64,000 nt of DNA from an uncultured Alphaproteobacteria bacterium. GTDB lineage: Bacteria; Pseudomonadota; Alphaproteobacteria; HIMB59; GCA-002718135. Shown piece after piece: positions 59,911-63,815 of this stretch. Under the pieces are notes generated by a model that did not search any database, was not told the origin of the DNA, and saw only the letters and a list, made by a program, of their open reading frames with translations. Within the stretch, counting starts at the first letter, position 1. The number at the start of each line of letters is the position of its first letter. The DNA is taken from assembly GCA_902587565.1 (NCBI GenBank), contig CACILT010000001.1, positions 62,001 through 126,000 on the forward strand, written 5' to 3'. The translations under genes were made by a program, and so were the position numbers.

Positions 59911-60327
59911 ATGTTAAACAAGAATATGGTTTCAGAAAATTTTGATAGTTTATTCAAGGCTGCAAAAAAAGTTAGAGAACAAGCTCATGTGCCTTATTCA
60001 AATTTTAAAGTAGGAGCAGCTTTTCTAACAGAAGATAGTAAAATTATTACTGGTTGTAATGTTGAAAATGCTGCCTATCCTCAATCCCAGTGTGCCGAAG
60101 CAACTGCAATTGGAAATATGATATCTAATGGAAACAAAAAAATTTTAGAGGTTGTGGTTATAGGTTCAGGTGAATTATTATGCTCACCTTGTGGTGGTTG
60201 TAGACAGAGGTTAAGAGAATTTGCTACTTTAGATACTAAGATTCATATGTGTAACGAAAATGGTCATATGAAAACATCTACGCTCGAAGAATTACTTCCA
60301 GACTCTTTTGGCCCAGAGAATCTTTAA
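59911..60327 (+). CDS. cdd: Cytidine deaminase
   Basis: 138 residues, homotetrameric-type. VPYSNFKVGAAFL, CNVENAAYPQSQCAEATAIGNM with zinc Cys and catalytic Glu, and CSPCGGCRQRLREF with the other two zinc Cys. Makes uridine from cytidine. First gene of a salvage run; stop overlaps the punA start by 1 bp. Confidence 0.96.
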   Translation: MLNKNMVSENFDSLFKAAKKVREQAHVPYSNFKVGAAFLTEDSKIITGCNVENAAYPQSQCAEATAIGNMISNGNKKILEVVVIGSGELLCSPCGGCRQRLREFATLDTKIHMCNENGHMKTSTLEELLPDSFGPENL

Positions 60328-61157
60328 TGCTACCTTCGGCCAAAAAATTTCTAGACATAACAAATAATACTTCACCTGATATTGCCGTAATTTTAGGAAG
60401 TGGACTAACCAATTTTTTTGAAGAAAAAGATATTCAAGAATCAATTTCATATGAACAGTTAGCTGATTTTCCACAGCCAACTGTAAAAGGTCACGCAGGT
60501 AAATTAGTTTTAGGAAAAATAAATACTTTAAATGTTGTTTGTATGTATGGAAGATCCCATATTTATGAAGGACACAATCCTCAAAGCTTAGCTTCACCCA
60601 TAAGAGTATTAAAGGACATTGGGTGCAAGTTATTAGTTGTTACAAATGCAGCAGGTAGTTTAGATGAAGCTATGCCAGCTGGTAGTCTAATGGCAATTAA
60701 AGATCATATTAACTGGAGTGGTTTCAATCCACTTATTGGACCCAATGCTGAAGAGTATGGCCCTCGTTTTCATGATATGAGTGATGGGTATCATAAGTTT
60801 TATAGAGATCAGTTAATGCAAGTCGCTAAAAAAATAGATCAAAAAATTTATGAAGGTATTTATTGTATGTACTCAGGACCAAACTTTGAAACACCTGCTG
60901 AAATTAATGCCTTAAAAGTAATAGGTGGAAATGCTGTTGGAATGTCTACAGTACCAGAAGTTTTAGTTGCTAATCATTGCGGACTTCCTGTTATTGGTAT
61001 CAGTGTAATCACCAACTTAGCTGCTGGTATGAATAAAACAAAATTAAGTCATCAAGAAACTTTAGAGAATGCAAGTTTAGCAGAGAACAATGTTTTAAAT
61101 TTAATTAAACAATTTATACAAGAAGTTCAATTCGATGATACCTCAAGAGATAATTAG
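60327..61157 (+). CDS. punA: Purine nucleoside phosphorylase (trimeric type)
   Basis: 276 residues. AVILGSGLTNFFEE (phosphate loop), GHAGKLVLGKIN, MYGRSHIYEGHNPQ, VTNAAGSLDEAMPAGSLMAIKDHINWSGFNPL, SGPNFETPAEINALKVIGGNAVGMSTVPE and VITNLAAGMN mark the PNP II family (punA/xapA). Cleaves purine nucleosides with phosphate. Overlaps deoA by 23 bp. Whether it takes inosine, guanosine or xanthosine cannot be told. Confidence 0.93.
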   Translation: MLPSAKKFLDITNNTSPDIAVILGSGLTNFFEEKDIQESISYEQLADFPQPTVKGHAGKLVLGKINTLNVVCMYGRSHIYEGHNPQSLASPIRVLKDIGCKLLVVTNAAGSLDEAMPAGSLMAIKDHINWSGFNPLIGPNAEEYGPRFHDMSDGYHKFYRDQLMQVAKKIDQKIYEGIYCMYSGPNFETPAEINALKVIGGNAVGMSTVPEVLVANHCGLPVIGISVITNLAAGMNKTKLSHQETLENASLAENNVLNLIKQFIQEVQFDDTSRDN

Positions 61158-62445
61158 AAAAAAAAGAGATAACCAAGATCTTTCAAAAGAAGATATTAAC
61201 TTTTTTGTAGACGGTTTAACAAATGGATCTTTTTCAGATGCACAAATTGCAGCAATGAGCATGGCAATATTTGCAAATGGAATGACGCCTGAAGAAACTG
61301 TTTGTTTGACTGAGGCGATGACAAACTCTGGTGATACACTTAATTGGTCTGAGATTGTGGATCCTGAGCTGGTTTGTGATAAGCACTCAACTGGTGGTGT
61401 TGGAGACAAGACGAGCGTTATATTAGCACCAATACTTGCAGCTTGTGGACTGTATGTACCTATGATTTCAGGTAGGGGTTTGGGTCATACAGGCGGTACC
61501 CTAGATAAATTTGATTCAATACCTGGGTACAATACAAAGCCTGATTTAGAGACTTTTAAAAAAGTTGTAAAAGACGTTGGTTGTGCAATTATCGGTCAAA
61601 CCTCTAACTTAGCACCAGCTGATAAAAAATTATATTCAATAAGGGATATTGTAGGTACAGTAGAATCTTTACCCTTAATAACATCATCTATTCTTTCAAA
61701 AAAAATTGCAAGCGGTCTTTCATCTTTGGTACTTGATGTAAAAGTTGGTAATGGATCTTTTAATAGCACTATTGATATAGCAAGAGATTTATCCAACTCC
61801 TTAGTAAGAGTCGCTAAAGGAGCAGGTTTATATTGCGAAGCTATATTAACAGATATGAATCAGGTCTTAGGTAAAAGTGCTGGTCATACACTAGAGATAT
61901 TAGAATGCATAAAATATATTAAAAATGATTTTAAAGATCACCGATTAGAAAAGATCACTAATGAATTAATATCTTCGCTATTAGTAAACATTTATAAAAT
62001 TTCGAAAGAAGAGGCTTATAATAAAATTAATACGGTTATTAATAATGGATTAGCTGCAGAAAAATTTGAAATGATGGTTGCGGCCTTGGGTGGACCAAAA
62101 AATATTTTATCATCTTATGAAAAAGATTTAATAAATACTTCAGTTCGAAAAGATGTATTTTCTAGTGAACAAGGCTGGATAGAAAAAATTCATACCAGAG
62201 AATTAGGCCTTATACTTATTGAACTAGGAGGCGGAAGAAAACAAGTTACCGATAAAATAGATTACGGAGTTGGATATGATAATGTACTCAATATTGGTGA
62301 TGAAGTGAATTCCTCAACTCCTTTATTAAGTTTATACTCATATAAAAATATAGATGATAATTTAATAAATAAAATACAAAGTTGTTTCATCATTTCAGAT
62401 AAAAAAACTCACAAACTATCTGAAATATTTGAAACCATAAACTAA
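61135..62445 (+). CDS. deoA: Thymidine phosphorylase
   Basis: 436 residues, pyrimidine nucleoside phosphorylase. IRKKRDNQDLSKEDINFFVDGL, DKHSTGGVGDKTSVILAPILAACG (phosphate site), MISGRGLGHTGGTLDKFDSIPGY, VGTVESLPLITSSILSKKIASG and KVGNGSF. Gives thymine or uracil and (deoxy)ribose-1-P; uracil can go to Upp. Stop overlaps the next start by 1 bp. Confidence 0.94.
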   Translation: MIPQEIIRKKRDNQDLSKEDINFFVDGLTNGSFSDAQIAAMSMAIFANGMTPEETVCLTEAMTNSGDTLNWSEIVDPELVCDKHSTGGVGDKTSVILAPILAACGLYVPMISGRGLGHTGGTLDKFDSIPGYNTKPDLETFKKVVKDVGCAIIGQTSNLAPADKKLYSIRDIVGTVESLPLITSSILSKKIASGLSSLVLDVKVGNGSFNSTIDIARDLSNSLVRVAKGAGLYCEAILTDMNQVLGKSAGHTLEILECIKYIKNDFKDHRLEKITNELISSLLVNIYKISKEEAYNKINTVINNGLAAEKFEMMVAALGGPKNILSSYEKDLINTSVRKDVFSSEQGWIEKIHTRELGLILIELGGGRKQVTDKIDYGVGYDNVLNIGDEVNSSTPLLSLYSYKNIDDNLINKIQSCFIISDKKTHKLSEIFETIN

Positions 62446-63101
62446 TGAGTACCCAAACTGAAATTAATGAAGCACTTGTTCAATATTTAAAAACCGTTGG
62501 TTACAGAGAAGATAAAATAATTAGTGAACTAGAAAATGAAACTTTAAAACTTGGCAGTGTTTCACAAATGCAGATTGCAAAAGAACAAGGTCAGTTTTTA
62601 GAAATGATAACTAAAATTTCTAATGCTAAAAATTGTTTAGAAATTGGAAGATTTACAGGGATGAGCACCTTATTTTTAGCTAGAGGTCTACCTGAATCAG
62701 GAAAAATTGTAACTGTTGATAATTCAGATGAATTTTTACCATTAGCAAAAAAATATTGGGAATTAGATAATATAAGTTCAAAAATTGAATCGATTATTGG
62801 AGATGGTGTTGAGGTAATGCAAAGCATGATAGATCGTCAACAAAGTTATGATTTAATTTTTATAGATGCTGATAAGAATAATTATCCAAATTATTACGAA
62901 CTGTCGCTAAATCTATTAGTTTCTAATGGAATAATAATTATTGATAATATGCTTTGGCACGGTGATGTTGCTGACGAAACTAAACAAGACTCTCAAACAA
63001 AAACTATCCGCGATTTAAATTTAAAAATACAAAATGACACAAGAGTGGAATTCTCTCTTCTCCCATTATCTGATGGATTATCGTTTATAAGAAAAAAATA
63101 A
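62445..63101 (+). CDS. Class I O-methyltransferase (caffeoyl-CoA/YrrM-like)
   Basis: 218 residues. SAM fold: AKNCLEIGRFTGMSTLFLARGLPESGKIVTVDNSDEFLPLAKKYW, LIFIDADKNNYPNYYELSLNLL, IIIDNMLWHGDVAD. This is the Methyltransf_3 family, which in bacteria acts on catechol-like compounds or tRNA (TrmR-type). Substrate not predictable. Coupled to deoA by a 1-bp overlap. Confidence 0.88.
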   Translation: MSTQTEINEALVQYLKTVGYREDKIISELENETLKLGSVSQMQIAKEQGQFLEMITKISNAKNCLEIGRFTGMSTLFLARGLPESGKIVTVDNSDEFLPLAKKYWELDNISSKIESIIGDGVEVMQSMIDRQQSYDLIFIDADKNNYPNYYELSLNLLVSNGIIIIDNMLWHGDVADETKQDSQTKTIRDLNLKIQNDTRVEFSLLPLSDGLSFIRKK

Positions 63102-63107
63102 TAAAGA

Positions 63108-63135
63108 CTTGAATTAAATACAATCATCCCCACAT
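63108..63135 (+). promoter_or_regulatory. Sigma32-like promoter before hsp20
   Basis: CTTGAA (63108-63113), 14-nt spacer, CCCCACAT (63128-63135). The -35 is a perfect match and the -10 differs by one base from CCCCATNT. A start near 63142 would give a leader of about 57 nt that holds the thermometer-like hairpin. Confidence 0.75.
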
Positions 63136-63170
63136 CATTATTGTCTGTATGCCATTGTGGGTGCGGACAA

Positions 63171-63198
63171 AATAAACTTGCTTAATAAAGGAGTTATT
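63171..63198 (+). ncRNA. ROSE-like RNA thermometer candidate in hsp20 leader
   Basis: UUGCU (63178-63182) faces the Shine-Dalgarno AGGA (63189-63192) across a 6-nt loop UAAUAA: U-A, U-G, bulged G63180, C-G, U-A. This UYGCU/AGGA pairing with an unpaired G is the hallmark of ROSE elements. The stem extends with C77-G93, A76-U94, A75-U95 and, past a bulged A74, U73-A96, A72-U97, A71-U98, ending right at the AUG (63199). Melting on warming would free the ribosome site. Confidence 0.65.
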
Positions 63199-63636
63199 AT
63201 GACTAGAAACCTATCCGTTTGGAATTCTCTAAGACCATTCTCTGTTGGATTTGACTCAATTTTTGATGAATTTGATAGAATGTTGGAGTCTACGGAAAGA
63301 TACAATACAAATTATCCACCTTACAATATTCATAGAGTTGATGAGCATAACTATAAAATTGAAGTTGCTCTCGCTGGATATAGTAAAGAAGATATTGAGA
63401 TTGAATTAAAAGAAAACAACCTAACTGTTAGAAATAAACCTAAAGAAAAAGTGGTTAATGAAAATGGTAATGGTGTAATCCATAAGGGAATCTCAACAAG
63501 ACAGTTTGAAAGATCGTTCACAATTTCAGAAGATATCAAAGTTAAAGATGCTGAATTGAAAAATGGACTTTTAGCGATTGATTTAGAGAGAATTATTCCA
63601 GAAGAAAAAAAAGCTAGACTAATATCAATAAAGTAG
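63199..63636 (+). CDS. Small heat-shock protein Hsp20 (IbpA-like)
   Basis: 145 residues. N-terminal RPFSVGFDSIFDEFDRMLE and YPPYNIHRVDEHNYKIEVALAGYSKEDIEIELKENNLTV of the alpha-crystallin domain, with RQFERSFTISEDIKVKDAELKNGLLAIDLER closing it. ATP-independent holdase. The ATG at 63199 follows AAAGGAG; an in-frame upstream ATG at 63157 lies in the promoter leader and would destroy the regulatory layout. Preceded by sigma32-like promoter and thermometer; followed by a terminator. Confidence 0.96.
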   Translation: MTRNLSVWNSLRPFSVGFDSIFDEFDRMLESTERYNTNYPPYNIHRVDEHNYKIEVALAGYSKEDIEIELKENNLTVRNKPKEKVVNENGNGVIHKGISTRQFERSFTISEDIKVKDAELKNGLLAIDLERIIPEEKKARLISIK

Positions 63637-63644
63637 TTTGGATA

Positions 63645-63670
63645 GGGGCCCAAAGTGGCCCCAACATTTT
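63645..63670 (+). terminator. Rho-independent terminator after hsp20
   Basis: GGGGCC (63645-63650), loop CAAAGT, GGCCCC (63657-63662), then AACATTTTT. A GC-rich 6-bp stem followed by T's, 9 bp after the hsp20 stop. Confidence 0.8.
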
Positions 63671-63699
63671 TAACTTTAAATTTAGAATAAATCTAATTT

Positions 63700-63739
63700 T
63701 ATGAATTTTAACAACACTGATATTAAAAAAAAATTCATA
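63700..63739. repeat. 10-bp AT-rich inverted repeat upstream of the iron-binding protein gene
   Basis: TATGAATTTT (63700-63709) and AAAATTCATA (63730-63739) are exact reverse complements with a 20-nt spacer, about 95-130 bp before the start codon. It could be a regulator site, but it does not match a known Fur or Irr box that I recognise. Confidence 0.4.
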
Positions 63740-63792
63740 TAGATCTACATTCGTATTCTGTTAATTTTTAATAAGATTCTTAATCATAGAAC

Positions 63793-63815
63793 GTGGAGAT
63801 ATTTATTATCTCCAC
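63793..63815 (+). promoter_or_regulatory. 9-bp stem-loop in leader of iron-binding protein gene
   Basis: GTGGAGATA (63793-63801), loop TTTAT, TATCTCCAC (63807-63815), a perfect stem 17 nt before the ATG and 6 nt before the AAGAAGG ribosome site. There is no T-run, so it is not a terminator. Could be mRNA stabilising or an operator. Confidence 0.6.

Follow-up and report, generated by a model that had tools for sequence, protein, structure and literature searches.

A probable two-hairpin ROSE-like RNA thermometer under an RpoH-type promoter upstream of hsp20 in an uncultured marine alphaproteobacterium

In fourU thermometers, four consecutive U residues are paired with the Shine-Dalgarno sequence. 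The closest described relatives of the leader reported here are the ROSE-like ibpA leaders of Pseudomonas putida and Pseudomonas aeruginosa, which consist of two hairpins and measure 62 and 61 nt respectively (PMC3669281). According to the same paper, P. putida ibpA has a sigma-32 promoter and its transcription was found by experiment to be sigma-32-dependent, hairpin II alone melts in its leader, and removal of the bulged G together with a stabilising change led to the loss of reporter activity; in P. aeruginosa, single-base deletions, the bulged G among them, lowered expression. Hairpin I was considered there as a possible transcript stabiliser, and the sigma-32 consensus is given as NNCTTGAA-N(13-18)-CNCCATAT (PMC3669281). 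In the crystal structure of another ROSE-like element, a U-G wobble, a bulged G and a C-G pair distort the helix, and the recognised ROSE signature is a bulged-G UUGCU/Shine-Dalgarno core (PMC11342760).

The window, i.e. the whole 64,000-nt stretch of DNA analysed here, comes from an uncultured marine alphaproteobacterium whose assembly measures 1.2 Mb and is about 70% complete. Near its 3' end the window carries a small heat-shock gene, hsp20, which is very probably controlled by an RpoH-type promoter and by a short leader acting as a ROSE-like RNA thermometer with two hairpins. The features of the locus are the following:

63108-63113, forward strand: -35 element CTTGAA of RpoH (sigma-32) type, identical in 63/63 aligned leaders
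63128-63135, forward strand: -10 element CCCCACAT, with a 14-nt spacer from the -35 element
63141-63143, forward strand: inferred transcription start, about 6-8 nt past the -10 element, placed from the promoter position
63142-63169, forward strand: hairpin I, with covariation and a fold z of -3.3 for 63142-63170
63151, forward strand: bulged G of hairpin I, under a CC/GG cap formed by C63152-C63153 and G63159-G63160
63175-63195, forward strand: hairpin II, ROSE-like core predicted to sequester the Shine-Dalgarno sequence, 6/7 pairs invariant in 43 leaders
63178-63182, forward strand: ROSE motif UUGCU (anti-Shine-Dalgarno) with bulged G63180, invariant in 63/63 leaders
63189-63193, forward strand: Shine-Dalgarno sequence AGGAG, invariant in 63/63 leaders
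63199-63636, forward strand: hsp20, ibpA-like small heat-shock protein of 145 aa, AUG at 63199-63201
63645-63662, forward strand: terminator-like hairpin 3' of hsp20, from a consensus scan of 62900-63800

The hsp20 product matches the IbpA model NF008013 (E 1.9e-33) with 115.5 bits, which is under the curated cut-off of 212, and it is the sole Pfam HSP20 match in the about 70% complete assembly. A homologue is present in 84 of the 101 genus genomes searched and in all six that are at least 90% complete. The ORF before hsp20 stops at 63101 and, therefore, the promoter and leader occupy the entire 97-nt gap. The scan for terminators in 62900-63800 returned 1 hairpin compared to a mean of 0.2 in shuffles, and its position 3' of the gene suggests an hsp20 transcript of one gene.

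Promoter conservation was followed in an alignment of 63 rows (A1), made of the window and 62 distinct leaders out of 80 loci, one of the 62 being identical to the window. CTTGAA-N14-CCCCACAT differs by one mismatch, to CNCCATAT, from the sigma-32 consensus as stated in PMC3669281, and the 14-nt spacing, like CTTGAA itself, is kept in every row of A1, the window included, bearing out the consensus-like heat-shock promoter proposed in a preliminary description of this DNA. The -10 element reads CCCCACAT in 40/63 leaders, the remaining ones having related C-rich boxes, and the six columns past it take 33 forms among the 63 leaders. The transcription start expected from the promoter position coincides with the base of hairpin I. 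Assembly-wide, the exact sigma-32 pattern was found at 4 distinct sites (5 rows), compared to 1 for the reversed control; no ORF of at least 60 aa starts 25-300 nt downstream, on the same strand, of the three sites other than that of hsp20, and consequently no regulon was inferred. An RpoH-type match was obtained in 30 of the 31 genus genomes, 25/31 exceeding the model cut-off, and the assembly of the window itself holds two RpoH-like genes (358 and 265 bits), which lie at C2:61203-62015 and C1:4867-5661. Given these two sigma factor genes, the earlier portrayal of the lineage as one with few regulators is not supported, at least for heat shock. Transcription of hsp20 by an RpoH-type sigma factor appears probable from the promoter motif. 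Both RpoH types, with scores near 355 and near 265 bits, occur together in 17/31 genus genomes, many of which are incomplete.

The RNA structure was followed in a second alignment (A2) of 43 distinct leaders from six genera of the family, which comprises the window, 38 of the 62 distinct leaders (80 loci) and 4 other loci. Near-duplicates of the element were dropped by eye, and L060, out of register in hairpin I, was counted as unpaired there; another alignment, A3, was left out of the counts because L198 aligned badly. In A2, 97.7% of the cells of the named two-hairpin structure are paired and 36 cells are changed on both sides, compared to a shuffle mean of 10.3, with 0/500 shuffles reaching 36 and at most 7 such cells when the 3' partners were slid. 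RNAalifold, unaided, gave the same structure with one inner pair more in each hairpin. All double changes are confined to hairpin I, where 97.2% of cells are paired, 4 pairs are changed on both sides and the outer stem is repeatedly rewritten; the hairpin I structure is shown by covariation. Its apex AU[G]CC/GGGU, including the bulged G63151 that is preceded by the wobble U63150-G63161, is invariant in 43/43 leaders. The preliminary description, which saw a single minimal hairpin in the leader, had overlooked hairpin I, and the leader is made of two hairpins.

In hairpin II, UUGCU at 63178-63182 stands opposite AGGA at 63189-63192, with G63180 bulged. ACUUGCU and AGGAGUU are unchanged in all 63 leaders of A1 while neighbouring bases vary, and in A2 the core with its bulged G is fixed in 43/43 leaders, whereas the flanks and the loop differ between them. 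As a check on this hairpin, it had been proposed to look for relatives in which the pairing is broken and not compensated; in this check six of its seven pairs were unbroken in 43/43 leaders, the outermost pair being broken in 5. This invariance is strong conservation, yet neutral as pairing evidence, and we infer the pairing of hairpin II. The suggestion that the stem reaches down to the AUG, on the other hand, was not sustained: 68.8% of the cells of this extension are paired among the 43 leaders, the pairs at columns 38 and 39 being broken in 18 and 17 of them respectively, and the extension is not conserved.

No Rfam family was found in the window at gathering thresholds. In a permissive search, RF02523 (ROSE_3) aligned over its whole length to 63143-63204 with 29.9 bits, with an E-value of 1e-4 in a 181-nt stretch and of 1.6e-4 in the 1.2 Mb assembly, where the next best rival had E 2.19. 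Since 29.9 bits is under the gathering score of 43, the leader is no member of RF02523 as curated; across 100 family genomes the score reached at most 32.2 bits. RF01832 (ROSE_2) gave a partial match of 13.1 bits to the window, compared to its gathering score of 65 and to 100.4 bits for E. coli ibpA, used as positive control. The leader resembles ROSE_3 in its two-hairpin layout, its AUGCC/GGGU apex with bulged G and its ACUyGCU/AGGAG core, and differs in loop and stems. Like this leader, that of E. coli ibpA has a bulged G in its upstream hairpin and a corresponding core, CUCGCU with the Shine-Dalgarno sequence, and strain K-12 (L207:2917-2989) carries exactly the apical nonamer CCAUUGUGG of the window; the outer stems differ. 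In the Rfam consensus of both ROSE_3 and ROSE_2 a bulged G is also implied in the upstream hairpin, and no mention of this G was found in the ROSE literature searched, in which few subscription journals are covered. Three features by which the ROSE class is recognised are present: U(U/C)GCU imperfectly paired to the Shine-Dalgarno sequence with a bulged G; an additional hairpin on the 5' side, here hairpin I, whose stem shows compensatory changes; and a leader position ahead of a heat-shock gene, in this class most often one for a small heat-shock protein, as is hsp20 (AUG at 63199). The similarity to ROSE_3, the 63/63 invariance and the six unbroken pairs of seven together support the UUGCU/AGGA hairpin with bulged G that had been proposed. 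The leader is like a fourU element in having a hairpin that would hide the Shine-Dalgarno sequence, and unlike it in that UUGCU with a bulged G, rather than a run of four U residues, faces AGGA.

Compared with Pseudomonas ibpA as described in PMC3669281, the locus has in common the sigma-32 promoter (P. putida), the two-hairpin leader and the IbpA-type gene; the leader would be about 57 nt long from its expected start, compared to 61-62 nt, and hairpin II has a predicted energy of -2.9 kcal/mol at 37 C (63168-63205), compared to -4.1 to -7.6 in Pseudomonas. It differs in belonging to another bacterial class, in its AU-rich outer stems and in being known from sequence alone. With leaders of 62 and 61 nt in Pseudomonas and a sigma-32 promoter in P. 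putida (PMC3669281), the view first taken, that the short leader and the dual control are unusual, is not supported.

The case rests on conservation, not on folding energy. Linker shuffles hid the Shine-Dalgarno sequence at least as well as the wild type in 247/1000 cases and shuffles of all upstream bases reached the wild-type value in 301/1000; folding energy was therefore rejected as evidence for hairpin II, and the calculated sequestration is, by folding energy alone, not above chance. The 38-nt hairpin II stretch has a fold z of -0.77, the predicted opening cost of hsp20 is second among the 3 window genes with AGGAG before ATG, and the motif CTTGCT-N(3-10)-AGGAG, found once in the window, has at least one copy in 17/100 shuffled windows. 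At 20 C the calculated cost of opening is 4.1 kcal/mol for the wild type and 8.2 kcal/mol once G63180 is removed, which agrees with the earlier expectation that deletion of this base should lock the stem. Temperature-dependent exposure of the Shine-Dalgarno sequence is a further trait of the ROSE class. In nearest-neighbour melting curves, which are a rough guide only, the predicted mean unpaired fraction of the Shine-Dalgarno sequence rises gradually from 0.02 to 0.28 over 5-50 C, compared to 0.01 to 0.35 for E. coli ibpA in the identical calculation; with 30 nt of coding sequence added the prediction is flatter (0.11 to 0.25), and the relatives L104 and L153 are predicted to be about half open at every temperature.

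A covariance model built from A2 (R1) was searched against 385 genomes of the class and matched 10 of them at E <= 0.05, two being in the own genus. The eight other matches fall in four other families with genomes of 1.1-1.4 Mb, and each of the eight is immediately followed by an hsp20 homologue (39-57% identity), with CTTGAA upstream in 7/8; E. coli ibpA was matched weakly (E 0.055). RF02523 searched class-wide matched 6/385 genomes, a lower bound because under the stricter filters the match in the window itself was lost. A further alignment, A6, retained 24 of 26 sources, L218 and L219, above E 0.001, being left out. In its 24 rows, 36 cells are changed on both sides, compared to 7.5 when shuffled and at most 6 when slid, and 5/7 hairpin II pairs never vary, counts that lean towards the R1 structure to which A6 was fitted; CUUGCU is kept in 24/24 rows, as are GCC and its GG partners in hairpin I. 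The second model, R2, built from A6, gave 32 matches in 30/385 genomes at E <= 0.05; this count and that of R1 are lower bounds because of strict filters, although the window was recovered by both. Seven R2 matches (the window and L212-L217) are training rows. Of the 30 R2 matches read, hsp20 follows immediately in 22, rpoH in 3 and neither gene in 5; for the 11 that are new with respect to R1 at E <= 0.002 the corresponding numbers are 7, 3 and 1. Weak matches (E 0.002-0.05) were excluded from the firm members; 9 of their 11 loci were read, five being directly upstream of hsp20 (L234, L235, L236, L237, L239) and four away from it (L232, L233, L238, L240). The window's own genome has a second, weak R2 match at C5:51282-51342 (24.3 bits, E 0.023).

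The 43/43 leaders of A2, 24/24 rows of A6 and 25/25 leaders of a sister family of the order have, in their upstream hairpin, a bulged G just beneath the apical cap. That it is universal was considered and rejected, since the cap is CU/AG in L218, L219 and L223 and, among the weaker matches, inspection by eye showed no such hairpin in L234, L235 and L236. The sister family (L146-L175, L186, L187), whose hsp20 is 40-47% identical, has a different, three-hairpin leader, in which no Rfam ROSE match was obtained up to E 10 for L186 and up to E 1 for L146. All 25 distinct leaders (31 loci) contain a G-CC-loop-GG hairpin in which six or more pairs lie beneath the bulged G, and the last hairpin reads UUAAC[G]CUU...GGAGGUUAA in 24/25, L148 having G for C. 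From its sequence this leader looks like a diverged ROSE element. In family f10 (L215, L220, L221, L222), no CTTGAA was seen upstream and TTGACA/TGACAT repeats, in part with TGACAT/ATGTCA symmetry, are found instead, as would be expected if the RNA element had been retained under a new transcriptional control.

Three genomes from two other alphaproteobacterial families also have two-hairpin ROSE-like elements immediately before rpoH, at L227:1501-1575, L231 (minus strand, 1501-1577) and L229:1501-1564, with R2 E-values of 6.7e-5 to 1.4e-3. All three genes are above the cut-off of the sigma-32 model NF005143; for TIGR02392 (NCBIfam), with a cut-off of 323.1 bits, L227 (328.8) and L231 (327.1) are above it and L229 (282.7) below. 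The minimum-energy fold of L229 is an alternative pairing and not two hairpins. No obvious ROSE core was seen by eye in the own rpoH leader at C2. In other alphaproteobacteria, ROSE_3 matches were observed upstream of clpB, at L196:1501-1570 (43.9 bits), L199 (32.8 bits) and L201 (29.4 bits), clpB being identified by NCBIfam in L196 and from similar sequence only in L199 and L201.

In the proposed thermometer, an RpoH-type sigma factor would transcribe hsp20 from CTTGAA-N14-CCCCACAT and the mRNA would begin around 63142, about where the stem of hairpin I starts. By reference to the ROSE class, the UUGCU/AGGA pairing around bulged G63180 would keep ribosomes off in the cold, and the weak helix of hairpin II would open upon warming and allow translation. 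The leader could instead be mainly an autoregulatory docking site, with Hsp20 repressing its own translation until titrated by aggregates and melting being secondary, which we regard as rather unlikely. According to PMC10474464, E. coli IbpA binds its own 5' UTR and represses translation, Arg93 being needed and Tyr34 important, and both residues are conserved in alphaproteobacterial IbpAs. The matching Y39 and R101 of Hsp20 (P0001) are invariant in 7/7 aligned proteins and the hairpin I apex with its bulged G is invariant in the family, which speaks for docking; however, such Tyr and Arg residues are common in IbpA proteins generally and, therefore, do not single out this Hsp20, and the weaker hsp20-adjacent matches L234, L235 and L236 lack, by eye, a bulged-G hairpin I. 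A docking site is moreover compatible with a thermometer and not exclusive of it, and by analogy with E. coli hairpin I may be part of a putative Hsp20 docking site.

That hairpin I only protects the mRNA 5' end, hairpin II being an incidental AU-rich pairing with no thermoregulation, would agree with a sequestration energy within chance and with the role of possible transcript stabiliser considered for hairpin I in PMC3669281. It is very improbable in view of ACUUGCU being fixed in 63/63 leaders while its neighbours vary, of CUUGCU in 24/24 rows of A6 and of the recurrence of the hairpin pair upstream of hsp20 in four other families. The least probable reading is that another factor (an RNA-binding protein, a small RNA or a ligand) reads the leader and that there is no temperature sensor: the hairpin I apex is indeed conserved beyond the needs of a structural stem, and no row of three sets, whether aligned or patterned, lacks its bulged G, but a UUGCU/Shine-Dalgarno core with a bulged G is what marks ROSE elements (PMC11342760) and 25 of the 30 R2 matches read are directly upstream of hsp20 (22) or rpoH (3). 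Beyond the thermometer itself, a joint reading may be considered, quite improbable as a whole, in which the leader belongs to a short ROSE family of small-genome Alphaproteobacteria outside the Rfam thresholds, the bulged-G capped hairpin I being as defining as the Shine-Dalgarno hairpin, both hairpins forming a two-part Hsp20 docking site and the element being placed on rpoH in some families. On this reading, the two hairpins in the window would repeat one and the same UGC/GG kink. If there were a two-part docking site, the leader would sense aggregated protein as well as temperature, and if the element acts on rpoH, the heat-shock sigma factor itself would be under a ROSE-type switch.

The literature searched, which lay mostly outside subscription journals and included PMC2704228 (Pelagibacter candidate RNAs), PMC2864753 and PMC11109978, gave no earlier account of ROSE elements from these marine lineages. 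The leader is a known design in a new bacterial lineage and not a new principle. A well-studied type of thermometer thereby reaches ocean bacteria that are hard to culture; the covariance model picks up hsp20 leaders from several small-genome families unrelated to one another, and the leader provides a concrete and cheaply testable prediction on how such ocean cells would respond to warming. Two under-explained features are also highlighted, namely the bulged G conserved in hairpin I and the ROSE-like leaders before rpoH.

Other observations were made around hsp20 in the window and in relatives. Upstream, at 59911-62445, three genes resemble by eye a nucleoside-salvage cluster, the candidates being cytidine deaminase, purine nucleoside phosphorylase and thymidine phosphorylase. 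One genus genome has a second, distant hsp20 (L183, G066:C80; about 38-40% identity), in whose leader a ROSE-like element was looked for by eye and none seen. In another relative, an AdoCbl-II riboswitch match of 37.9 bits, above the gathering score of 36.5, sits at L112:4765-4860, about 1.8 kb downstream of hsp20.
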